The translations under genes were made by a program, and so were the position numbers. Below are positions 8,720 to 17,337 of a stretch of DNA of 64,000 nt, in pieces. The stretch is taken from positions 8,618,001 through 8,682,000 of the forward strand of contig NZ_CP034463.1 in assembly GCF_003955715.1 (NCBI RefSeq). Direction: 5' to 3'. The stretch comes from Streptomyces aquilus. Lineage in GTDB: Bacteria > Actinomycetota > Actinomycetes > Streptomycetales > Streptomycetaceae. The stretch's first letter is position 1; each line of letters begins with the position of its first letter. The notes beneath the pieces were generated by a model, which worked only from the letters and a program-made list of their open reading frames with translations, did not search any database and had not been told where the DNA came from.

Positions 8720-9685
8720 TTACTTGCCGTGATGCAGCTGCCAGCCGGCCCACGCCGACTCGATCATCTCCCGCACCCCGCGCCGGGCCCTCCAGCCGAG
8801 CTCCCGGGCGGCCAGCTCGGCCGAGGCGACCGAGACCGGCGCGTCACCGGGGCGCCGGGGCTCGACGACGGCTTCCCGCCGGTCGCCGGTGACCTCGCCG
8901 ATGACCGTGACCAGCTCCCGAACGGAGACACCCGCGCCGCGCCCGATGTTGACGGTCAGGTCGCCGTCGCGGTCCCCGACCCGTCGCGCGGCCGCGAGAT
9001 GTGCCTCGGCCAGGTCGGCGACATGGATGTAGTCGCGGACGCAGGTGCCGTCCGGCGTCGGATAGTCGTCGCCGAAGATCCGCGGGGCGTCGTCCCGGGT
9101 GAGCCGGTCGAAGACCATCGGCACGATGTTGAAGACACCCGTGTCGGCCAGCTCGGGCGCCGCGGCCCCCGCCACGTTGAAGTAGCGCAGACATACGGTG
9201 GAGATCCCGTGCGCCTGCCCGGCGGCCCGCACCAGCCACTCGCCGGTGAGCTTCGTCTCGCCGTACGGGTTCACGGGGGCGCACGGCGTGTCCTCCGTGA
9301 TGAGCCCCGCGTCCGGATTGCCGTACACGGCCGCCGACGAGGAGAACACGAACCGGCCGACACCGGCCTCGGCGACCGCCTCCAGGAGCGTCGCCAGACC
9401 GCCGACGTTCTCCTGGTAGTAGCGCGTCGGCTGCGCCACCGACTCGGCGACCTGCTTGCGCGCGGCCAGGTGCACCACCCCGGTCACGTCGTGCTCCGCG
9501 AGGACCCGCTTCAGCAGCCCGGCGTCGAGCGACGACCCCCGCACCAGCGGTACGTCCGCCGGGAGCCGCGCGGGAACCCCGGCCGAGAGGTCGTCCAGCG
9601 CGAGGACGCGCTCACCGGCCTCCGTCATGGCCCGCGCCACATGGGCCCCTATGTATCCCGCTCCGCCTGTGATCAGCCATGTCAT
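8720..9685 (-). CDS. galE: UDP-glucose 4-epimerase
   Basis: A 321-aa short-chain dehydrogenase/epimerase starting MTWLITGGAGYIGAHVARAM, with the NAD-binding TGGAGYIG motif. The catalytic Ser region is SSSAAVYG (about residue 114) and the Tyr-Lys pair is in NPYGETK (about 140). The family contains many UDP-sugar epimerases, but the overall sequence, including FNVAGA and GDDYPTPDGTCVRDYIHV, is typical GalE. It converts UDP-glucose and UDP-galactose in the cytosol. It is divergent from the phospho-polyol operon 278 bp away and could feed its glycosyltransferase; that link is inference. Confidence 0.93.
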   Translation of the reverse strand: MTWLITGGAGYIGAHVARAMTEAGERVLALDDLSAGVPARLPADVPLVRGSSLDAGLLKRVLAEHDVTGVVHLAARKQVAESVAQPTRYYQENVGGLATLLEAVAEAGVGRFVFSSSAAVYGNPDAGLITEDTPCAPVNPYGETKLTGEWLVRAAGQAHGISTVCLRYFNVAGAAAPELADTGVFNIVPMVFDRLTRDDAPRIFGDDYPTPDGTCVRDYIHVADLAEAHLAAARRVGDRDGDLTVNIGRGAGVSVRELVTVIGEVTGDRREAVVEPRRPGDAPVSVASAELAARELGWRARRGVREMIESAWAGWQLHHGK

Positions 9686-9963
9686 GGTCGCCCACCCTAT
9701 GCCGAGGCCGGGACGGCCGACGCTATGTCCCAGATGCCCGATCCTGCGGGACGCGGTTTGTGGGCGGGGCCCGTGATCGCCCATGATGATCGCGGCAAAG
9801 GCCGGGGGAGCCGCCGTCGATCGGCCCGTGAACGGGCGGTGAACGCGGGCTTCCCGGCATCCGATAGCCTCTGCCGACATGCCGCCCGGCCGTCACCGGC
9901 AAGGGGCGCCCCCACCGTGTACTCGCCGGCGTGCAGACGTCGGCACCCAGGGAGTGAGTTCGG

Positions 9964-11757
9964 TTGTCGACCGCCATCCTCACCGGTCAGCCGGTCCCCG
10001 GATCGTCGATCGAGGGCGATCTGCGGTCCCTCGGCTTCGACGTCCGGACCGCCACCGACGCCGCCGAGACCGAGACGCTCCTCGCCCAGGTGCCCGCTGA
10101 CCAACGCGTCGCCGTCGTCGACGCCGGCTTCGTCGGCCACCTGCACGCCCTGCGCCTGGGCCTGACCGACCCGCGCTTCCCGCTCGCCGCGATCCCCGGC
10201 GCCGTCACCGCCCAGCCGGCCGGCCGCCAGGCCCTGACCCGCGCGATGGCCCGGGAGAACAGCGCCGGCGGCGGTACGGCGGTCGCCGTCGACCACCTCG
10301 CCGACCGCGTCGTCGCCGCGCTGGACGCGGACGACGCCGGCGTCCACCACCCCGAGCTCGGCAGCCTGGTCGCCGTCGTCCCGGCCGACCCGCAGGCCCG
10401 CAACGAGGCACGGCAGGCCGTCGCCGCCGTCGACGACGAAGCCGTACGCCTGAAGTCGGCCGTGAAGTCCCGCGACGGCTTCTTCACCACGTACTGCATC
10501 AGCCCGTACTCCCGCTACATCGCCCGCTGGTGCGCCCGCCGGGGCCTGACCCCGAACCAGGTCACCACCGCCTCCCTGATCACCGCCCTCATCGCGGCGG
10601 CCTGCGCGGCCACCGGCACCCGCGGCGGCTTCGTCGCGGCGGGCGTCCTGCTGATCGCCTCCTTCGTCCTCGACTGCACCGACGGCCAGCTCGCCCGCTA
10701 CTCCCTCCAGTACTCCACGCTCGGCGCCTGGCTGGACGCCACCTTCGACCGGGCCAAGGAGTACGCCTACTACGCGGGCCTCGCGCTGGGAGCGGCCCGC
10801 GGCGGCGACGACGTATGGGCGCTCGCGCTCGGCGCGATGGTCCTCCAGACCTGCCGGCACGTCGTCGACTTCTCCTTCAACGAGGCCAACCACGACGCCA
10901 CCGCCAACACCAGCCCCACCGCCGCCCTCTCCGACAAGCTCGACAGCGTCGGCTGGACGGTGTGGATACGGCGCATGATCGTGCTGCCGATCGGCGAGCG
11001 CTGGGCGATAATCGCGGTCCTCACGGCGCTGACCACCCCCCGCATCACCTTCTACGCGCTCCTCATCGGCTGCGCGTTCGCGGCGACCTACACCACGGCG
11101 GGCCGGGTGCTGCGCTCGCTGACCCGCAAGGCCCAGCGCACGGACCGGGCGGCGAAGGCGCTGGCGGACCTGGCGGACAGCGGGCCGCTGGCCGAACTGC
11201 TCACCCGGGGCCTGCCCGACAAGGTCCACGGTCTGGCGCCGCTGAACGCGGCCTTCGGCGGGGCGCTCCTGGCGGTCACGGCCGCCGTGTTCGGGCCCAG
11301 CTGGCAGGTCGTCGCGGCGGCCGGCCTCTACGTCGTGCTGGCCGGCGAGTCCGTCAACCACCCCCTCAAGGGCGCCCTCGACTGGCTCATCCCGCCTTTC
11401 TTCCGCGCCGCCGAATACGGCACCGTCCTCATCCTCGCGGCCAAAGCGGACGTGAACGGAGCCCTTCCTGCGGCTTTCGGGCTGGTGGCGGCGGTCGCCT
11501 ACCATCACTACGACACGGTGTACCGCATCCGCGGCAACGCCGGCGCGTCCCCGGCCTGGCTGGTGCGCGCCATCGGGGGGCACGAAGGACGGACGCTGCT
11601 CGTCACCGTCCTCGCCGCGCTGCTCACCGCCTCGCAGTTCACGGTCGCGCTCACGGCTCTCGCCGTGGCCGTGGCCCTGGTGGTGCTCTTCGAGAGCATC
11701 CGCTTCTGGGTGTCCTCCGGGGCGCCCGCCGTACACGATGAAGGAGAACCCGCATGA
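9964..11757 (+). CDS. CDP-alcohol phosphatidyltransferase with DUF5941-like C-terminus
   Basis: A 597-aa protein with TTG start 9964-9966 after AGGGAG. Residues 1-160 are a soluble Ala/Asp-rich domain I do not recognise firmly. Residues 170-400 are a CDP-alcohol phosphotransferase membrane domain with an intact signature: D237-C-T-D240-G with the AR pair, then GAWLD and FD supplying the third and fourth Asp. Residues 400-597 are a further membrane region resembling DUF5941 (FFRAAEYGT, AYHHYDTVYRIRG). Such enzymes transfer a phospho-alcohol from a CDP-activated donor to an acceptor alcohol at the membrane. It is the first gene of a seven-gene operon (ATGA overlap with the next). The acceptor and donor are unknown. 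Confidence 0.85.
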   Translation: MSTAILTGQPVPGSSIEGDLRSLGFDVRTATDAAETETLLAQVPADQRVAVVDAGFVGHLHALRLGLTDPRFPLAAIPGAVTAQPAGRQALTRAMARENSAGGGTAVAVDHLADRVVAALDADDAGVHHPELGSLVAVVPADPQARNEARQAVAAVDDEAVRLKSAVKSRDGFFTTYCISPYSRYIARWCARRGLTPNQVTTASLITALIAAACAATGTRGGFVAAGVLLIASFVLDCTDGQLARYSLQYSTLGAWLDATFDRAKEYAYYAGLALGAARGGDDVWALALGAMVLQTCRHVVDFSFNEANHDATANTSPTAALSDKLDSVGWTVWIRRMIVLPIGERWAIIAVLTALTTPRITFYALLIGCAFAATYTTAGRVLRSLTRKAQRTDRAAKALADLADSGPLAELLTRGLPDKVHGLAPLNAAFGGALLAVTAAVFGPSWQVVAAAGLYVVLAGESVNHPLKGALDWLIPPFFRAAEYGTVLILAAKADVNGALPAAFGLVAAVAYHHYDTVYRIRGNAGASPAWLVRAIGGHEGRTLLVTVLAALLTASQFTVALTALAVAVALVVLFESIRFWVSSGAPAVHDEGEPA

Positions 11758-12506
11758 TCGGCCTCGTGCTGGCGGCCGGCGCCGGACGGCGTCTGCGCCC
11801 CTACACCGACAGCCTTCCCAAGGCTCTGGTGCCGGTGGGCCCCGCGGGCATAGAGGGCGAGCCCACGGTTCTGGACCTGACGCTCGGCAACTTCGCCGAG
11901 ATCGGGCTGACCGAGGTCGCGATCATCGTCGGCTACCGCAAGGAAGCCGTGTACGCGCGCAAGGAGGCGCTGGAGGCGAAGTACGGCCTCAAGCTCGCCC
12001 TCATCGACAACGACAAGGCCGAGGAGTGGAACAACGCCTACTCCCTGTGGTGCGGCCGTGACGCCCTCAAGGACGGCGTGATCCTCGCCAACGGCGACAC
12101 CGTGCACCCGGTCTCCGTCGAGAAGACGCTGCTCGCCGCCCGTGGCGAGGGCAAGCGGATCATCCTCGCCCTCGACGCCGTGAAGTCGCTCGCGGACGAG
12201 GAGATGAAGGTCGTCGTCGACCCCGCCAAGGGCGTCACGAAGATCACCAAGCTGATGGACCCCGCCGAGGCCACCGGCGAGTACATCGGTGTCACGCTCA
12301 TCGAGGGCGACGCCGCCCCCGAGCTGGCCGACGCGCTGAAGACGGTCTGGGAGACCGACCCGCAGCAGTTCTACGAGCACGGGTACCAGGAACTGGTGAA
12401 CCGTGGCTTCAGGATCGACGTCGCGCCGATCGGTGACGTGCAGTGGGTGGAGATCGACAACCACGACGATCTCGCCCGCGGACGGGAGATCGCGTGCCTC
12501 TACTGA
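11754..12506 (+). CDS. Sugar/polyol-phosphate nucleotidyltransferase
   Basis: A 250-aa enzyme starting MIGLVLAAGAGRRLRPYTDS, carrying the nucleotidyltransferase signature LAAGAGRRLRPYTDSLPKAL. The metal-binding Asp region is ANGDTVHPV (about residue 119). Start ATG 11754 overlaps the preceding stop (ATGA). Placed between two CDP-alcohol phosphotransferases and a polyol-phosphate dehydrogenase-like gene, it most plausibly makes a CDP-activated polyol or inositol phosphate, as CTP:phospho-alcohol cytidylyltransferases do. Nucleotide and substrate specificity cannot be read from the sequence. Confidence 0.85.
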   Translation: MIGLVLAAGAGRRLRPYTDSLPKALVPVGPAGIEGEPTVLDLTLGNFAEIGLTEVAIIVGYRKEAVYARKEALEAKYGLKLALIDNDKAEEWNNAYSLWCGRDALKDGVILANGDTVHPVSVEKTLLAARGEGKRIILALDAVKSLADEEMKVVVDPAKGVTKITKLMDPAEATGEYIGVTLIEGDAAPELADALKTVWETDPQQFYEHGYQELVNRGFRIDVAPIGDVQWVEIDNHDDLARGREIACLY

Positions 12507-13555
12507 CCCGGCTCATCCCCGCGCCGGTCGTCGTCGACATCCGCCCGGGTGCCCTCGACGACCTGGTCGGCGTCCTCGCCGACGAGCGCATCTCGCACTC
12601 CGGCAGGCTCGCCGTCGCCGTCAGCGGCGGCTCCGGCGCCCGGCTGCGCCAGCGGCTCGAACCCTCGCTCCCCGGCGCCACCTGGTACGAGGTCGGCGGC
12701 GGCACCCTCGACGACGCGGTCCGGCTGGCGAGCGACATAAAGGCCGGCCACTACGACGCGGTCGTGGGCCTCGGCGGCGGCAAGATCATCGACTGCGCCA
12801 AGTTCGCCGCGGCGCGCGTCGGCCTGCCGCTGGTCGCCGTCCCGACGAACCTCGCCCACGACGGCCTGTGCTCCCCGGTCGCGACCCTCGACAACGACGC
12901 GGGCCGCGGCTCCTACGGCGTACCGAACCCGATCGCGGTCGTCATCGACCTCGACGTCATCCACGAGGCCCCGGCCCGCTTCGTGCGCGCGGGCATCGGC
13001 GACGCCATCTCCAACATCTCCGCGATCGCGGACTGGGAGCTGGCCAACCGGGTCAAGGGCGAGAAGATCGACGGCCTGGCCGCCGCGATCGCCCGCCAGG
13101 CCGGTGAAGCGGTCCTCAGGCACCCCGGCGGCATAGGGGACACGGACTTCCTCCAGGTGCTCGCCGAGGCGCTCGTGCTCAGCGGTATCGCGATGTCGGT
13201 CTCGGGCGACTCCCGCCCGTCCTCCGGTGCCTGCCACGAGATCAACCACGCCTTCGACCTGCTGTTCCCCAAGCGCGCCGCCGCGCACGGCGAGCAGTGC
13301 GGCCTCGGCGCGGCCTTCGCGATGTTCCTGCGCGGCGCCCACGAGGAGTCCGCGTACATGGCGGAGGTGCTGCGCCGGCACGGCCTGCCGGTGCTCCCGG
13401 AGGAGATCGGCTTCAGCGTGGACGAGTTCGTCCGCGCCGTCGAGTTCGCCCCCGAGACCCGGCCCGGCCGGTACACGATCCTCGAACACCTCGACCTCAA
13501 GACCGACCAGATCAAGGATCTCTACGTCGACTATGTCAAGACCATCGGTAGCTGA
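12494..13555 (+). CDS. sn-Glycerol-1-phosphate dehydrogenase-like (EgsA/AraM) iron-type alcohol dehydrogenase
   Basis: A 353-aa protein from GTG 12494-12496, overlapping the previous gene by 13 bp. The NAD(P)-binding glycine motif is VVGLGGGKIIDCAKF (about residues 92-106). Likely metal ligands are D123 (LAHDGLCSP), H248 (GACHEINH) and H265 (AAHGEQCG), the Asp-His-His set of the EgsA branch of iron-containing alcohol dehydrogenases. Known EgsA/AraM enzymes reduce dihydroxyacetone phosphate to sn-glycerol-1-phosphate. Here it would supply a polyol phosphate for activation by the adjacent nucleotidyltransferase. Related enzymes reduce other ketose phosphates, so the product is uncertain. Confidence 0.82.
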   Translation: MPLLTRLIPAPVVVDIRPGALDDLVGVLADERISHSGRLAVAVSGGSGARLRQRLEPSLPGATWYEVGGGTLDDAVRLASDIKAGHYDAVVGLGGGKIIDCAKFAAARVGLPLVAVPTNLAHDGLCSPVATLDNDAGRGSYGVPNPIAVVIDLDVIHEAPARFVRAGIGDAISNISAIADWELANRVKGEKIDGLAAAIARQAGEAVLRHPGGIGDTDFLQVLAEALVLSGIAMSVSGDSRPSSGACHEINHAFDLLFPKRAAAHGEQCGLGAAFAMFLRGAHEESAYMAEVLRRHGLPVLPEEIGFSVDEFVRAVEFAPETRPGRYTILEHLDLKTDQIKDLYVDYVKTIGS

Positions 13556-14312
13556 ACTCCGTCCGGTCGTGCACCCCGCAGGGGTGAAGGACCGGCGCAG
13601 CGGTGAGCACTGGATGGGGCGCCTCTACATGCGCGAGGTGTCCCTGCGGGTGGACCGCTACCTGGTGAACACCAGGGTCACGCCCAACCAGCTCACGTAC
13701 CTGATGACCGTCTTCGGCGTCCTCGCGGCCCCGGCACTGATCGTGCCGGGGATCCCGGGGGCCGTGCTCGGTGTGGTCTGCGTGCAGATGTATCTGCTGC
13801 TGGACTGCGTCGACGGCGAGATCGCCCGCTGGAAGAAGCAGTACTCGCTCAACGGCGTCTACCTCGACCGGGTCGGCGCCTATCTGACCGACGCCGCCGT
13901 CCTCGTCGGCTTCGGGCTGCGCTCGGCCGACCTGTTCGGCAGCGGCCGTATCGACTGGCTGTGGGCGTTCCTCGGCACGCTCGCCGCGCTCGGCGCCATC
14001 CTGATCAAGGCGGAGACCGACCTCGTCGGCGTCGCCCGGCACCAGGCCGGCAAGCCGCCCGTGCAGGAGTCGGCGGCCGAGATGCGCTCCTCCGGCATGG
14101 CGCTGGCCCGCAAGGCCGCGTCCCTGCTGAAGTTCCACCGCCTCATCCTCGGCATCGAGGCGTCCCTGCTGATCCTGGTCCTGGCCGTCGCGGACCACCT
14201 GCGCGGCGACCTGTTCTGGTCCCGCCTCGGTGTCGCCGTACTGGCCGGCATCGCGCTGCTCCAGACGCTGCTGCACCTGGTGTCCATCCTCGCGTCGAGC
14301 AGGCTGAAGTGA
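13533..14312 (+). CDS. Second CDP-alcohol phosphatidyltransferase family protein
   Basis: A 259-aa membrane protein starting MSRPSVAELRPVVHPAG at ATG 13533, overlapping the dehydrogenase by 23 bp. The family signature is D91-C-V-D94-G with A98-R99, then G108 and D112. The fourth Asp expected at residue 116 is Ala (GVYLDRVGA), although D120 lies one turn later. Several hydrophobic segments (about 45-85, 130-155, 200-255) make it polytopic. In CDP-alcohol phosphotransferases the fourth Asp is proposed as the catalytic base, so the chemistry or register may differ here. It may act after the first transferase in the same pathway, on a different acceptor. It ends GTGA, coupled to the glycosyltransferase. 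Confidence 0.82.
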   Translation: MSRPSVAELRPVVHPAGVKDRRSGEHWMGRLYMREVSLRVDRYLVNTRVTPNQLTYLMTVFGVLAAPALIVPGIPGAVLGVVCVQMYLLLDCVDGEIARWKKQYSLNGVYLDRVGAYLTDAAVLVGFGLRSADLFGSGRIDWLWAFLGTLAALGAILIKAETDLVGVARHQAGKPPVQESAAEMRSSGMALARKAASLLKFHRLILGIEASLLILVLAVADHLRGDLFWSRLGVAVLAGIALLQTLLHLVSILASSRLK

Positions 14313-15205
14313 GCGCCCCCGCCAGCGCGCCCCTGAAGGTCGGCGCCGTCATCATCACGATGGGCAACCGGCCCGAGGAACTCCGCGCCCTGCTCGACTC
14401 GGTCGCCAAGCAGGACGGTGACCGCGTCGAGGTGGTCGTCGTCGGCAACGGCTCGCCCGTCCCGGACGTCCCCGCGGGCGTCCGCACGATCGAGCTGCCC
14501 GAGAACCTCGGCATCCCCGGCGGCCGCAACGTCGGCATCGAGGCCTTCGGTCCCAGCGGTCGCGATGTCGACATATTGCTCTTCCTCGACGACGACGGCC
14601 TCCTCGCGAACCACGACACCGCCGAGCTGTGCCGCACCGCGTTCGCCGAGGACCCGAAGCTCGGCATCATCAGCTTCCGCATCGCCGACCCGGACACCGG
14701 CGTCACCCAGCGCCGTCACGTCCCGCGGCTGCGCGCGGCGGACCCGATGCGCTCCTCGCGCGTGACCACGTTTCTCGGCGGCGCCAACGCCGTCCGCACC
14801 CAGGTCTTCGCCGAAGTCGGCGGCCTCCCGGACGAATTCTTCTACGCGCACGAGGAAACCGACCTGGCATGGCGGGCCCTCGACGCGGGCTGGATGATCG
14901 ACTACCGGTCCGACATGGTGCTGTACCACCCGACGACCGCGCCCTCGCGGCACGCGGTCTACCACCGCATGGTCGCCCGCAACCGCGTCTGGCTCGCCCG
15001 CCGCAACCTCCCCGCCCTCCTGGTCCCCGTCTACCTCGGGGTCTGGATGCTGCTCACCCTGCTGCGCCGCCCCTCGCGGCCCGCGCTCAAGGCATGGTTC
15101 GGCGGATTCCGGGAAGGCTGGACCACCGCGTGCGGCCCACGCAAGCCCATGAAGTGGCGTACCGTGTGGCGGCTGACCCGACTGGGCCGGCCCCCGGTCA
15201 TCTGA
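14309..15205 (+). CDS. Family 2 glycosyltransferase
   Basis: A 298-aa enzyme from GTG 14309-14311 (GTGA overlap). The GT-A fold is visible: the N-terminal strand VGAVIITMGNRPEELRALLD, the NLGIPGGRNVGIE motif of GT2 rhamnosyl/galactosyl-type transferases, the metal-binding FLDDDG (about residues 91-96), and the acceptor-site EETDLAWR (about 188-195). A hydrophobic segment near residue 240 (LLVPVYLGVWMLLTLL) probably anchors it to the membrane. In this operon it would glycosylate the phospho-polyol intermediate before export. Donor sugar unknown; GalE upstream makes UDP-galactose a candidate. Confidence 0.88.
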   Translation: MSAPASAPLKVGAVIITMGNRPEELRALLDSVAKQDGDRVEVVVVGNGSPVPDVPAGVRTIELPENLGIPGGRNVGIEAFGPSGRDVDILLFLDDDGLLANHDTAELCRTAFAEDPKLGIISFRIADPDTGVTQRRHVPRLRAADPMRSSRVTTFLGGANAVRTQVFAEVGGLPDEFFYAHEETDLAWRALDAGWMIDYRSDMVLYHPTTAPSRHAVYHRMVARNRVWLARRNLPALLVPVYLGVWMLLTLLRRPSRPALKAWFGGFREGWTTACGPRKPMKWRTVWRLTRLGRPPVI

Positions 15206-15301
15206 CAAGCTCGAACCAGAGAGCGGCCGGGCCGACACCCGGCCCTGGCTCATGCCCAAGCCCGCACAGGCTGCGCATCTCGAAGACGAAAGTTTCCACC
15301 A

Positions 15302-16237
15302 GTGAGTGAGACAACGCATGACGGCGGAGTCGCGGTGACCGCGCCTCCGTCGCCCGACGAGGGCCTCACGGCGGCAGAGCTCGCCGCCAAGTACGGGCTG
15401 GCCGTGAGCGGTGCCCGCCCCTCGCTCGCCGAGTACGTCCGTCAGCTCTGGGACCGGCGCCACTTCATCCTCGCGTTCTCGCGGGCGAAGCTGACCGCCC
15501 AGTACAGCCAGGCCAAGCTCGGCCAGCTCTGGCAGGTGGCCACCCCGCTGCTGAACGCACTGGTCTACTTCTTCATCTTCGGCCTGCTGCTGGGCGCCCG
15601 GAAGGGCATCCCGCACGACATCTACGTGCCGTTCCTGGTGACCGGCGTGTTCGTCTTCACCTTCACCCAGAGCTCGGTCCTCGCGGGCGTGCGCGCGATC
15701 TCCGGCAACCTGGGCCTGGTGCGGGCCCTGCACTTCCCGCGGGCGTCCCTGCCGATCTCGTTCGCGCTCCAGCAGCTCCAGCAGCTGCTGTACTCGATGA
15801 TCGTGCTGGTCGTGGTCATGGTGGCGTTCGGCAGCTACCCGGGCCTGTCCTGGCTGCTGGTCGTCCCGGCCCTGGTCCTGCACTTCGTCTTCAACACCGG
15901 CCTCGCGCTGATCTTCGCCCGCATGGGCAGCAAGACCCCCGACCTGGCCCAGCTGATGCCCTTCGTGCTGCGCACCTGGATGTACGCGTCCGGCGTCATG
16001 TTCAGCATCCCGGCCATGCTCGCCGACAAGGACGTGCCGGGCTGGGTCACCGAGGTCCTGCAATGGAACCCCGCCGCGATCTACATGGACCTGATCCGCT
16101 TCGCGCTGATCGACGGCTACGGCTCCGAGTACCTGCCCCCGCACGTGTGGCTCTTCGCCGTCGGCTGGGCCGTGCTCGCCGGCGCGTCCGGGTTCGTCTA
16201 CTTCTGGAAGGCGGAAGAGAGGTACGGCCGTGGCTGA
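15302..16237 (+). CDS. ABC-2 transporter permease (TagG/Wzm type)
   Basis: A 311-aa permease starting at GTG 15302 (MSETTHDGGVAVTAPPSPDE). A soluble N-terminal stretch of about 60 residues is followed by the ABC-2 membrane domain with six hydrophobic segments (for example ALVYFFIFGLLLGARK, YVPFLVTGVFVFTF, LYSMIVLVVVMVAFGSY). This class exports completed lipid-linked polysaccharides or teichoic-acid-type polymers. It overlaps the ATPase gene by 8 bp. A 96-bp gap separates it from the glycosyltransferase, so an internal promoter is possible; only a weak ribosome site is seen. Confidence 0.9.
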   Translation: MSETTHDGGVAVTAPPSPDEGLTAAELAAKYGLAVSGARPSLAEYVRQLWDRRHFILAFSRAKLTAQYSQAKLGQLWQVATPLLNALVYFFIFGLLLGARKGIPHDIYVPFLVTGVFVFTFTQSSVLAGVRAISGNLGLVRALHFPRASLPISFALQQLQQLLYSMIVLVVVMVAFGSYPGLSWLLVVPALVLHFVFNTGLALIFARMGSKTPDLAQLMPFVLRTWMYASGVMFSIPAMLADKDVPGWVTEVLQWNPAAIYMDLIRFALIDGYGSEYLPPHVWLFAVGWAVLAGASGFVYFWKAEERYGRG

Positions 16238-17021
16238 CACCGAGCAGAAGGCGGTCCCCCAGGACCCTCGCCCCACCGTCATCGCGGACGACCTGCACAT
16301 CGTCTACCGCGTCAACGGCGCCAAGTCCGGCAAGGGCAGCGCCACCGCGGCCCTCAGCCGTATCGTCAAGCGCGGCGAGGAGCGCGGGGTGCGCAAGGTG
16401 CACGCCGTGCGCGGTGTCTCCTTCGTCGCCTACCGCGGCGAGGCCATCGGCCTCATCGGCTCCAACGGCTCCGGCAAGTCGACGCTGCTGCGCGCCATCG
16501 CCGGTCTGCTGCCCGCCGAGAGCGGCAGGGTCTACACCGACGGCCAGCCCTCGCTGCTCGGCGTCAACGCGGCCCTGATGAACGACCTCACCGGCGAGCG
16601 GAACGTCATATTGGGCGGGCTCGCCATGGGCATGTCCCGGGAGCAGATCAAGGAGCGCTACCAGGAGATCGTCGACTTCTCGGGTATCAACGAGAAGGGC
16701 GACTTCATCACCCTGCCGATGCGCACCTACTCCTCCGGTATGGCGGCCCGCCTGCGGTTCTCCATCGCCGCGGCCAAGGACCACGACGTCCTGATGATCG
16801 ACGAGGCGCTGGCCACCGGCGACCGCAAGTTCCAGAAGCGCTCCGAGGCGCGCATCCGGGAACTGCGCAAGGAGGCCGGCACGGTGTTTCTCGTCAGCCA
16901 CAACAACAAGTCGATCCGTGACACCTGCAACCGTGTCCTGTGGCTGGAGCGCGGCGAGCTGCGCATGGACGGTCCGACCGACGAGGTCCTCAAGGAGTAC
17001 GAGAAGTTCACGGGCAAGTAG
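16230..17021 (+). CDS. ABC transporter ATP-binding protein (TagH/Wzt type)
   Basis: A 263-aa ATPase starting at GTG 16230. Walker A is GSNGSGKST (residues 77-85), the signature is YSSGMAARLRF (about 170), Walker B is VLMIDEALATGD (about 188-199), and the switch His is in VSHNNKS. The atypical signature (SSGM rather than LSGGQ) and the N-terminal insertion are characteristic of polysaccharide/teichoic-acid exporters. There is no C-terminal carbohydrate-binding extension as in some Wzt proteins. It pairs with the permease and ends the operon; a strong terminator follows 40 bp later. Confidence 0.92.
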   Translation: MADTEQKAVPQDPRPTVIADDLHIVYRVNGAKSGKGSATAALSRIVKRGEERGVRKVHAVRGVSFVAYRGEAIGLIGSNGSGKSTLLRAIAGLLPAESGRVYTDGQPSLLGVNAALMNDLTGERNVILGGLAMGMSREQIKERYQEIVDFSGINEKGDFITLPMRTYSSGMAARLRFSIAAAKDHDVLMIDEALATGDRKFQKRSEARIRELRKEAGTVFLVSHNNKSIRDTCNRVLWLERGELRMDGPTDEVLKEYEKFTGK

Positions 17022-17061
17022 TCCACGCGAGCGTGGACGAACCGGGTCATGACGCTTCGCG

Positions 17062-17092
17062 GGGCCCCGCCGGAACTGCTCCGGCGGGGCCC
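17062..17092 (+). terminator. Strong hairpin terminator after the exporter operon
   Basis: A perfect 13-bp inverted repeat, GGGCCCCGCCGGA (17062-17074), a 5-nt loop, and the complement (17080-17092). It lies 40 bp after the ABC ATPase stop and separates the phospho-polyol operon from the hopanoid operon. There is no T tract, as is common in actinobacteria. Confidence 0.85.
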
Positions 17093-17337
17093 TGCGTCTG
17101 CAAAGGAAACGTCAACTTCGGTACCCCGCAGGAATCTTGAAGTCAATCGGTGTGTTGTTGTGATGTGCAGGACACCCCGGCGATCCCAGCGGCGCTGTAC
17201 AACGTAAGCTGTACCGGTCCCGAATCGCGGCAAGTGGGGCGATAATGCCCGACACCCTCAGTCAGGGCCGCCGCGTGGAAGGCCGGGCGGCGTGTCCGAA
17301 ATAGTGTGCATTGGGTCGGCGGTGTAGAACGGGAGAT
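17093..17337 (+). promoter_or_regulatory. Upstream region of the hopanoid operon
   Basis: About 245 bp without a gene. It contains a GCTGTAC direct repeat (17194-17200 and 17208-17214, 14-bp period), which also gives the inverted pair GTACA/TGTAC with an 8-bp spacer (17197-17214). A GATAAT sequence (17241-17246) could be a -10 element, but no convincing -35 is visible. This is where the hopanoid promoter and any operator must lie; assignments here are tentative. Confidence 0.4.

Follow-up and report, generated by a model that had tools for sequence, protein, structure and literature searches.

A seven-gene operon in Streptomyces aquilus as a probable CDP-glycerol supply for wall teichoic acid synthesis

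A tightly packed operon of seven genes in Streptomyces aquilus looks like a unit that supplies wall teichoic acid synthesis and may also initiate it. Judged from the protein families, an archaeal-type route should replace the usual glycerol-3-phosphate enzyme, and glycerol phosphate of mirror-image configuration is expected. The operon probably supplies CDP-glycerol for a wall polymer that is built in the cytoplasm; that the glycerol phosphate has the sn-1 form is slightly favoured, and a TagA/TagB-like role for three of the transferases (g1, g4 and g5) is proposed tentatively. This reading draws on gene content, conservation, co-inheritance, the non-overlap of three CDP-polyol sources and one case in which TagD takes the place of two operon genes. 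All seven genes lie on the plus strand of the window (the whole stretch of 64,000 nucleotides that was analysed), between positions 9964 and 17021:

g1, 9964-11757, plus strand: TTG start; CDP-OH_P_transf (39 bits) and DUF5941 (314 bits)
g2, 11754-12506, plus strand: NTP_transferase family; putative CTP:glycerol-1-phosphate cytidylyltransferase
g3, 12494-13555, plus strand: GTG start; Fe-ADH_2 family; predicted EgsA/AraM-like glycerol-1-phosphate dehydrogenase
g4, 13533-14312, plus strand: ATG start; CDP-OH_P_transf, over the Pfam cut-off
g5, 14309-15205, plus strand: GT2 glycosyltransferase
g6, 15302-16237, plus strand: ABC2_membrane; polysaccharide/teichoic-type ABC exporter permease
g7, 16230-17021, plus strand: TagH/Wzt-type ABC exporter ATPase
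GC-rich hairpin, 17058-17096, plus strand: 39 bases, 3' of g7; probable transcription stop before a squalene synthase gene

The earlier note on this DNA described seven genes, mostly overlapping by 4-23 bases, and both the genes and their names stand: all seven have family matches, with overlaps of 4 (g1/g2), 13 (g2/g3), 23 (g3/g4), 4 (g4/g5) and 8 bases (g6/g7) and a single gap, of 96 bases, between g5 and g6. The starts of g3 and g4 were chosen by us inside longer open frames, that of g4 being 13533 by reading and 13584 by the gene caller. The gene content also supports the earlier view of one unit that would make a polyol phosphate, activate it with CDP, transfer it, glycosylate it and export it. 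Conservation across Streptomyces, which had been suggested as a check on the seven-gene block, is borne out for the genes searched: g3 is present in 199 of 199 genomes, and g2, g3 and g4, the three genes searched for in the class sample, stand side by side in all 22 of its Streptomyces.

The putative source of CDP-1-glycerol is the pair g2 and g3. The g3 protein scores 245.8 bits against the NCBI glycerol-1-phosphate dehydrogenase model, under the cut-off of 413, and 91.5 bits against glycerol dehydrogenase. Its best solved matches are glycerol-1-phosphate dehydrogenases (4rgq and 4rfl, 151 bits), and the Asp/His/His positions, which presumably bind metal, are conserved together with the DGxxSP positions; the glycerol-1-phosphate type of chemistry proposed earlier is borne out by this homology. 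Similar as it is to EgsA/AraM enzymes in these respects, g3 differs from them in being coupled to a nucleotidyltransferase, in scoring below the curated cut-off and in its setting, an operon from which a prenyl-ether lipid gene is absent. By profile, the best solved structures for g2 are 1jyk (CTP:phosphocholine cytidylyltransferase), 4jd0 and 6pd1, which we take to be LicC, an inositol-1-phosphate cytidylyltransferase and PntC; however, choline, inositol or phosphonate genes were not recognised in the operon, and a phosphonate reading of g2 was dropped on that ground. The two genes are inherited together, occurring jointly in 59 of the 61 genomes that have either (a raw genome count, uncorrected for shared ancestry, made after the weak g3 genomes G072 and G113 had been removed), and the two exceptions lie at contig ends. 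By coordinates they adjoin in 58 of these 59 genomes, G079 being the exception with about 10 kb between them, and g2 is immediately 5' of g3 at 80 of 80 loci.

The g1 protein consists of an N-terminal domain of unknown fold, a CDP-alcohol phosphotransferase core and a C-terminal DUF5941. Its motif, DxxDGxxAR(x8)GxxxDxxxD, is intact, and among 51 g1 sequences 50 have Asp at motif position 4, the remaining one giving no motif match. The g4 protein lacks the fourth Asp of this motif, a feature absent from the earlier note: the residue is Ala here, and among 112 g4 sequences, a few loci being counted twice, it is His in 87, Ala in 25 and Asp in none. Despite the altered motif, g4 is still over the Pfam family cut-off. 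Outside Streptomyces, g4 is accompanied by g5 at 54 of the 80 loci. Neither a degenerate second CDP-alcohol phosphotransferase domain in DUF5941 nor a degenerate cytidylyltransferase in the N-terminal domain of g1 was supported by profile comparison (probabilities of 0.2% and 0.6%, against 99.3% for the positive control, the g1 core with g4, and 0.0-0.3% for the negative controls, GT2 and permease profiles).

Across 246 genomes, three CDP-polyol sources show no co-occurrence, as raw genome counts uncorrected for shared ancestry: g2/g3 in 61 genomes, an unrelated nucleotidyltransferase in 29, and a TagD-like protein of at least 100 bits in 18, a line set after the data were seen, in a gap between 109 and 84 bits, with only one of the 18 over the curated TagD cut-off. 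One of the three is present in 75 of the 77 genomes with a TagF homologue and in 33 of the 169 without one, in a survey that scored four candidates per genome; a TagF match is absent from five g3 genomes, one of them Streptomyces (G243). The swap for TagD is seen at locus L058, where TagD (204.8 bits, cut-off 165.4), GalE, g4 and g5 form a same-strand run, and a search of that genome for g2-g3 found none. In L163 the unrelated nucleotidyltransferase forms a fusion with a TarF-like protein (270 bits, cut-off 550). Because all three sources are missing from six of the 81 genomes with g4, and an IspD-SDR gene takes their place in three of the four examined (L039, L049 and L059; none was seen in L050), g4 need not use CDP-glycerol.

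TagD itself (TIGR01518) gave no match in the S. aquilus genome, and only one of the 246 genomes, not a Streptomyces, was over its cut-off of 165.4 bits. Weak matches of up to 65.8 bits occur in 12 of 22 Streptomyces; the same search in control genomes gave matches in 12 of 14, two of them over the cut-off. Five of the 12 weak matches were inspected: that of G057 scores 74 bits as HldE-type and 60 as TagD, and those of G234, G216, G143 and G039 score 64-65 bits as TagD and 60-64 as HldE-type, and these Streptomyces may have a remote TagD. The TagA family (PF03808) is over its cut-off in four of the 22 Streptomyces, among them S. aquilus, where the match lies outside the operon at 1.46 Mb. We found no answer in the literature consulted to the origin of CDP-glycerol in Streptomyces where TagD is not recognisable, or to the start of teichoic acid synthesis mostly without TagA. 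Nor did we find a described product for this set of genes, in keeping with the earlier note, but the block is not wholly new to the literature: in the part of it that was accessible, a 2026 synteny survey (PMC13118837) associates the region with teichoic acid biosynthesis.

A family search found no TagF/TarL-type polymerase among the seven operon genes. From the missing teichoic-acid polymerase and ligase the earlier note had argued that the product may be a small glycophospholipid or a short phosphopolyol chain and not a wall polymer, a step that the rest of the genome does not bear out. A TagF-type protein (Glyphos_transf, 390 bits) is encoded some 4.2 Mb away from the operon, at 4.44 Mb; two distant TagF-like genes at 3.71 Mb accompany an IspD-SDR fusion that exceeds the cut-off for ribitol-5-phosphate cytidylyltransferase; LCP enzymes give 12 matches over the cut-off; and relatives often carry such genes alongside the block. 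For the exporter, the best model of g7 is TagH (184 bits, cut-off 320 not reached), followed by galactan Wzt (157 bits, cut-off not reached), and the best NCBI model of g6 is the galactan exporter Wzm (64 bits, cut-off 380 not reached). The cargo of g6/g7 may be a different one, since a second exporter pair (L151), itself a relative of g6/g7, is encoded roughly 5.5 kb from TagF. This TagF-type protein with its exporter pair is a candidate counterpart of the TagF locus of S. coelicolor (SCO2997, known to us from a title cited in PMC7831098).

At 45 of the 80 loci an LCP, distant TagF-like or GlfT2 gene lies within about 8 kb, and at 52 if IspD-type genes, which can be housekeeping, are counted; the score lines for neighbours were chosen after the data were seen. 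LCP genes are near 33 loci, IspD/TarI-type genes near 45 and distant TagF-like genes near 19; labels such as TagF-like and TarI-like come from reference sequences, of which a few were scanned, those TagF-like genes that were scanned giving 26-40 bits to Glyphos_transf. Nine loci have the full set of LCP, TagF-like, IspD-type, g4 and g5. At 19 Micromonosporaceae loci (18 by motif, plus L138), the gene after g2-g3 encodes a short CDP-alcohol phosphotransferase of another type, and no nearby wall gene scored above the thresholds, absences being soft with our home-made gene caller; at these loci the arrangement is consistent with a soluble product or a lipid. Three loci from metagenome-assembled genomes, L071, L072 (a short contig) and L146, have g2-g3 without the remaining block.

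The preferred pathway would begin with the reduction of dihydroxyacetone phosphate to sn-glycerol-1-phosphate by g3, as its homology suggests, and g2 would then use CTP to form CDP-1-glycerol, as co-inheritance and the TagD swap suggest. With less assurance, g1, g4 and g5 may take the place of TagA/TagB and begin or lengthen a lipid-linked glycan from a CDP-polyol and a nucleotide sugar, and TagF-type enzymes encoded elsewhere may share the same CDP-glycerol. The lipid-linked product would be exported by g6/g7 and attached to peptidoglycan by LCP enzymes encoded elsewhere.

In Bacillus, TagA and TagB make the linkage unit, TagA giving the GlcNAc-ManNAc linkage unit. The operon resembles the Bacillus/Staphylococcus pathway (TagO-TagA-TagB-TagD-TagF-TagGH-LCP) in its putative TagGH-like exporter and predicted CDP-polyol donor, and in the TagF-type, ribitol-type and LCP genes that S. 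aquilus has in its genome and many relatives have, some in distant versions, beside the block. In contrast to that pathway, the CDP-glycerol source would be a glycerol-1-phosphate dehydrogenase with an NTP_transferase-type enzyme and not TagD, TagA is mostly not found in Streptomyces, and two CDP-alcohol phosphotransferases and a GT2 enzyme are added. In the archaeal/Aquifex glycerophosphoinositol route a CDP-alcohol phosphotransferase step follows the cytidylyltransferase. That route has a glycerol phosphate cytidylyltransferase, the activity predicted for g2, and in A. fulgidus this activity prefers Gro1P (PMC8262930, accessible part), but here the context has a glycosyltransferase, an exporter and wall-gene neighbours.

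It is possible, though put forward tentatively, that CDP-1-glycerol arises from DHAP without TagD throughout Streptomyces and in many further actinomycetes, that their wall teichoic acids or linkage units are built from sn-glycerol-1-phosphate, the mirror image of those of Bacillus, and that priming, the task of TagB elsewhere, falls to CDP-alcohol phosphotransferases of the membrane, one of them with a changed catalytic motif. If true, CDP-1-glycerol, described as probably absent from bacteria in what could be seen of a 2021 paper (PMC8262930), belongs to the core metabolism of a large group of bacteria, and bacteria have no single fixed handedness of wall glycerol phosphate. The pathway bears on growth, since tagO is not deletable in S. 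coelicolor, as far as the accessible text of PMC7300013 goes. As to configuration, GlpQ digestion is blocked by substituents and by ribitol units. The enzyme frees sn-glycerol-3-phosphate from unsubstituted wall teichoic acid and not from intact sn-1 lipoteichoic acid, in the portion of PMC7086022 available.

One alternative, that the operon makes a linkage unit only, narrows the preferred reading and does not oppose it. Here g1/g4 would put one or two glycerol phosphates on a lipid-linked sugar made by g5, and other polymerases would build any chain. Wall polymers differ between Streptomyces species. Variation of one wall glycan is described in the accessible part of PMC13274773. The universal presence of g3 in Streptomyces in spite of these differences, the 18 of 22 Streptomyces with TagA not over the cut-off, and the retention of g4-g5 while the CDP-polyol source changes all speak for it; the acceptor is without direct evidence, however, and g4 is without the usual fourth Asp, which leaves it somewhat doubtful. 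A lipid product is unlikely: g1 or g4 would move CDP-1-glycerol to diacylglycerol or a glycolipid by a Kennedy-type route, giving phosphatidylglycerol-like or glycosylated phospholipids, and with diacylglycerol, by our reasoning, the natural headgroup configuration. The 19 loci with only g2-g3 and a short phosphotransferase agree with this, as does the match of g1 and g4 to inositol-phosphate-type CDP-alcohol phosphotransferases, several of which are lipid enzymes, but the GT2 enzyme and exporter within the operon, the wall genes near many other loci and the cross-genome link to TagF argue against it.

It is similarly improbable that the product of g3, which g2 then activates, is a different polyol phosphate, derived for instance from a pentulose or tetrulose phosphate. 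The score of g3 under the curated cut-off and the IspD/TarI-type neighbours leave room for this, but the best solved matches of g3, the replacement of g2-g3 by TagD in L058 and the absence of any overlap with TagD-like genomes favour glycerol. Some of the phosphotransferases that g1 and g4 resemble yield soluble products, but with an exporter and a GT2 enzyme in the operon and wall-gene neighbourhoods in relatives, a soluble glycerophospho-solute of the glycerophosphoinositol kind is very improbable.

The link to a neighbouring hopanoid operon, from which the earlier note drew a role in envelope properties, finds no backing. A squalene/phytoene synthase gene does follow g7, with the hairpin in between. 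No terminator was found after g7 by a scan whose rule needs a T-rich tail, and the hairpin has no T tail; the 91-nucleotide stretch that contains it folds at -51.4 kcal/mol (z -4.28). With the hairpin separating the two, and none of the 80 loci outside Streptomyces having squalene synthase within about 8 kb, the hopanoid connection seems to be one of position.

The operon consists of seven plus-strand genes (9964-17021, by gene calling on the window), which family profiles assign as follows:

g1, plus strand, CDP-alcohol phosphotransferase with DUF5941
g2, plus strand, nucleotidyltransferase
g3, plus strand, EgsA-like dehydrogenase
g4, plus strand, second CDP-alcohol phosphotransferase
g5, plus strand, GT2
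g6/g7, plus strand, exporter

The tight packing described in the earlier note, mostly by overlaps of 4-23 bp, is borne out, with overlaps of 4, 13, 23, 4 and 8 bases and a single gap of 96 bases. The conservation across Streptomyces that it proposed to check was also found: g3 is present in 199 of 199 genomes, and g2-g3-g4 are contiguous in 22 of 22 (class sample, by coordinates). The closest named homologues of g1, at 97%, belong to S. aquilus and S. antibioticus. A GalE-type epimerase lies divergently on the minus strand (window 8720-9880).

On the basis of homology and co-inheritance, g3 would convert DHAP to sn-glycerol-1-phosphate (G1P), from which g2 would make CDP-1-glycerol for wall teichoic acid. 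Residues 102-348 of g3 (numbering from 12443) align with the G1P dehydrogenases 4rgq and 4rfl at 151 bits, and residues 103-359 with 3ce9, labelled a glycerol dehydrogenase, at 149 bits. Against the G1P dehydrogenase model g3 scores 246 bits, under the cut-off of 413, compared with 91.5 bits for glycerol dehydrogenase. It keeps the DGxxSP motif and the metal-binding Asp/His/His positions. The nearest profile matches to g2 are 1jyk (CTP:phosphocholine cytidylyltransferase), 4jd0 and 6pd1.

All four Asp residues of the CDP-alcohol phosphotransferase motif are present in 50 of 51 g1 sequences, the motif not being found in the other. The fourth Asp occurs in none of 112 g4 sequences (His in 87, Ala in 25, a few loci being counted twice, e.g., L124/L044 and L146/L035); of the 22 operon copies in Streptomyces, 21 have Ala at this position. 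Such regularity suggests that the chemistry or acceptor differs, not that the motif is decaying. Two Streptomyces loci (L032 and L046) carry second g4 homologues outside the operon, 49-52% identical to g4 and also with Ala at the fourth position.

The earlier note regarded G1P chemistry as notable in a bacterium. G1P is not foreign to bacteria, since it enters lipoteichoic acid via phosphatidylglycerol; the same source places sn-3 in the wall teichoic acid and sn-1 in the lipoteichoic acid of Bacillus (PMC7086022). The novelty would be CDP-1-glycerol as donor, not G1P as such. PMC13118837 already connects this block with the biosynthesis of teichoic acid. PMC6431249 and PMC5059525, which also discuss lipids, assign G1P dehydrogenase genes to Streptomyces; PMC8262930 confines the AraM-dependent lipid pathway to Bacillales, considers CDP-1-glycerol likely absent from bacteria, and describes some cytidylyltransferases as accepting both enantiomers. 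The wall polymer of S. griseus is described in PMC13274773 as containing ribitol phosphate together with a terminal glycerol phosphate. Nothing on a G1P/CDP-1-glycerol route appears in the available portions of PMC7831098, PMC12286996, PMC6629963 and PMC5974469, and no proposal of G1P-based CDP-glycerol for actinobacterial walls was found among the matches listed in searches of open-licence literature.

The wall teichoic acid pathway of this 10.39 Mb genome is scattered. A GT2-TagF protein at 4.436-4.438 Mb scores 390 bits for Glyphos_transf and 149 bits, of the 550 needed, for the TarF model. A few kb away lie GalE and another exporter pair, which matches g6/g7 at 454 and 465 bits:

L151:16973-18767, this second exporter pair, similar in sequence to g6/g7, in the vicinity of TagF and GalE, own genome

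This GalE is a relative of the window epimerase. An IspD-SDR fusion at 3.71 Mb (168 bits) exceeds the ribitol-5-P cytidylyltransferase cut-off of 166; also at 3.71 Mb are two genes distantly related to TagF (22.6 and 35 bits), and a third such gene is at 0.865 Mb. The genome has 12 LCP matches, a profile search of it gave no match to TagD, and its single TagA-family gene is at 1.46 Mb; of the 22 Streptomyces, only 4 have this family above cut-off. With TagF, IspD-SDR and LCP elsewhere, TagD unmatched and TagA rare, the operon may supply parts missing from the canonical set. A role there for g1, g4 and g5 would follow from their neighbourhood and the missing TagA, and the acceptor would be an undecaprenyl-linked sugar, judging from the exporter type and TagO. 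The tagO gene (SCO5365) of S. coelicolor could not be deleted, according to PMC7300013. Some Streptomyces (L168-L172) have weak TagD/HldE-like nucleotidyltransferases, far under both curated cut-offs.

Across the class sample of 246 genomes, g4 occurs in 81 (E<=1e-10), g3 in 62 (1e-15; 60 once two weak ones are dropped), g2 in 60 (1e-30) and a TagF homologue in 77 (1e-40). TagD-like proteins (at least 100 bits) occur in 18, one above the curated cut-off, and another nucleotidyltransferase, seen beside blocks without g3, in 29 (1e-25). Of the 61 genomes with g2 or g3, 59 have both, and the two exceptions are at contig ends. The three sources g2/g3, TagD-like and the other nucleotidyltransferase never overlap (10.5 overlaps expected under independence, 224 non-Streptomyces genomes). 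One of these three sources is present in 75 of 77 TagF genomes (the exceptions are G167 and G168) versus 33 of 169 without TagF; P values for the co-occurrence and exclusion overstate the case because shared ancestry is ignored.

The sole TagD over cut-off (G221, locus L058; 204.8 bits) lies in a same-strand run of TagD, GalE, g4 and g5, and g2 and g3 have no match anywhere in that genome. The other nucleotidyltransferase is fused with a TarF-like domain in G046 (L163:7357-9204; 270 bits, cut-off 550), and its gene adjoins a TarF-like gene in G028 (L164). This swap and these linkages point to a predicted common role of the three sources in CDP-polyol supply for teichoic acid. The other nucleotidyltransferase, never found with g2-g3, is possibly a new CDP-polyol synthase family.

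Querying named genomes with g3 yields at least 587 relatives, of which the best 80 loci, none from Streptomyces, were kept; they were chosen by match quality rather than sampled at random, and neighbours come from our own gene calls, so some may be missed. Among these best 80 of at least 587, g2 is immediately 5' of g3 in all 80, and 54 also carry g4 and g5. Nearby are LCP (33), distant TagF-like (19), GlfT2 (3) and IspD/TarI-type genes (45); 45 loci have one or more of LCP, TagF-like and GlfT2, or 52 when IspD-type is added, and LCP, TagF-like, IspD-type, g4 and g5 all occur in 9. Squalene synthase is near none of these 80, which speaks against the hopanoid link drawn from the position of the operon. 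L086 and L092, for example, show the complete order LCP, GT2, TagF-like, IspD-SDR fusion, g1, DUF5941 gene and g2-g5. The TagF-like proteins scanned are distant, reaching 26-40 bits against a Glyphos_transf cut-off of 22.1, and matched no NCBI model, except for a GT2-TagF fusion in L065 (326 bits); the IspD-SDR proteins scanned score near both the IspD and ribitol-5-P models.

In Micromonosporaceae, g2-g3 form a minimal trio with a short CDP-alcohol phosphotransferase of a third kind (18 loci recognised by motif, namely L085, L094, L112, L115 and 14 more, plus L138), near which our gene calls gave no wall genes over the thresholds used. In three Nocardioides loci (L073, L074 and L076) and in L036, g2-g3 occur together with GlfT2 and an exporter, where the product is perhaps a galactan bearing glycerol-phosphate. 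Additional copies exist in two Streptomyces loci, both 3' of an RNase E/G-type gene: g2-g3 followed by an Obg-type gene (L033:8802-10603), and g3 alone (L034:9379-10449).
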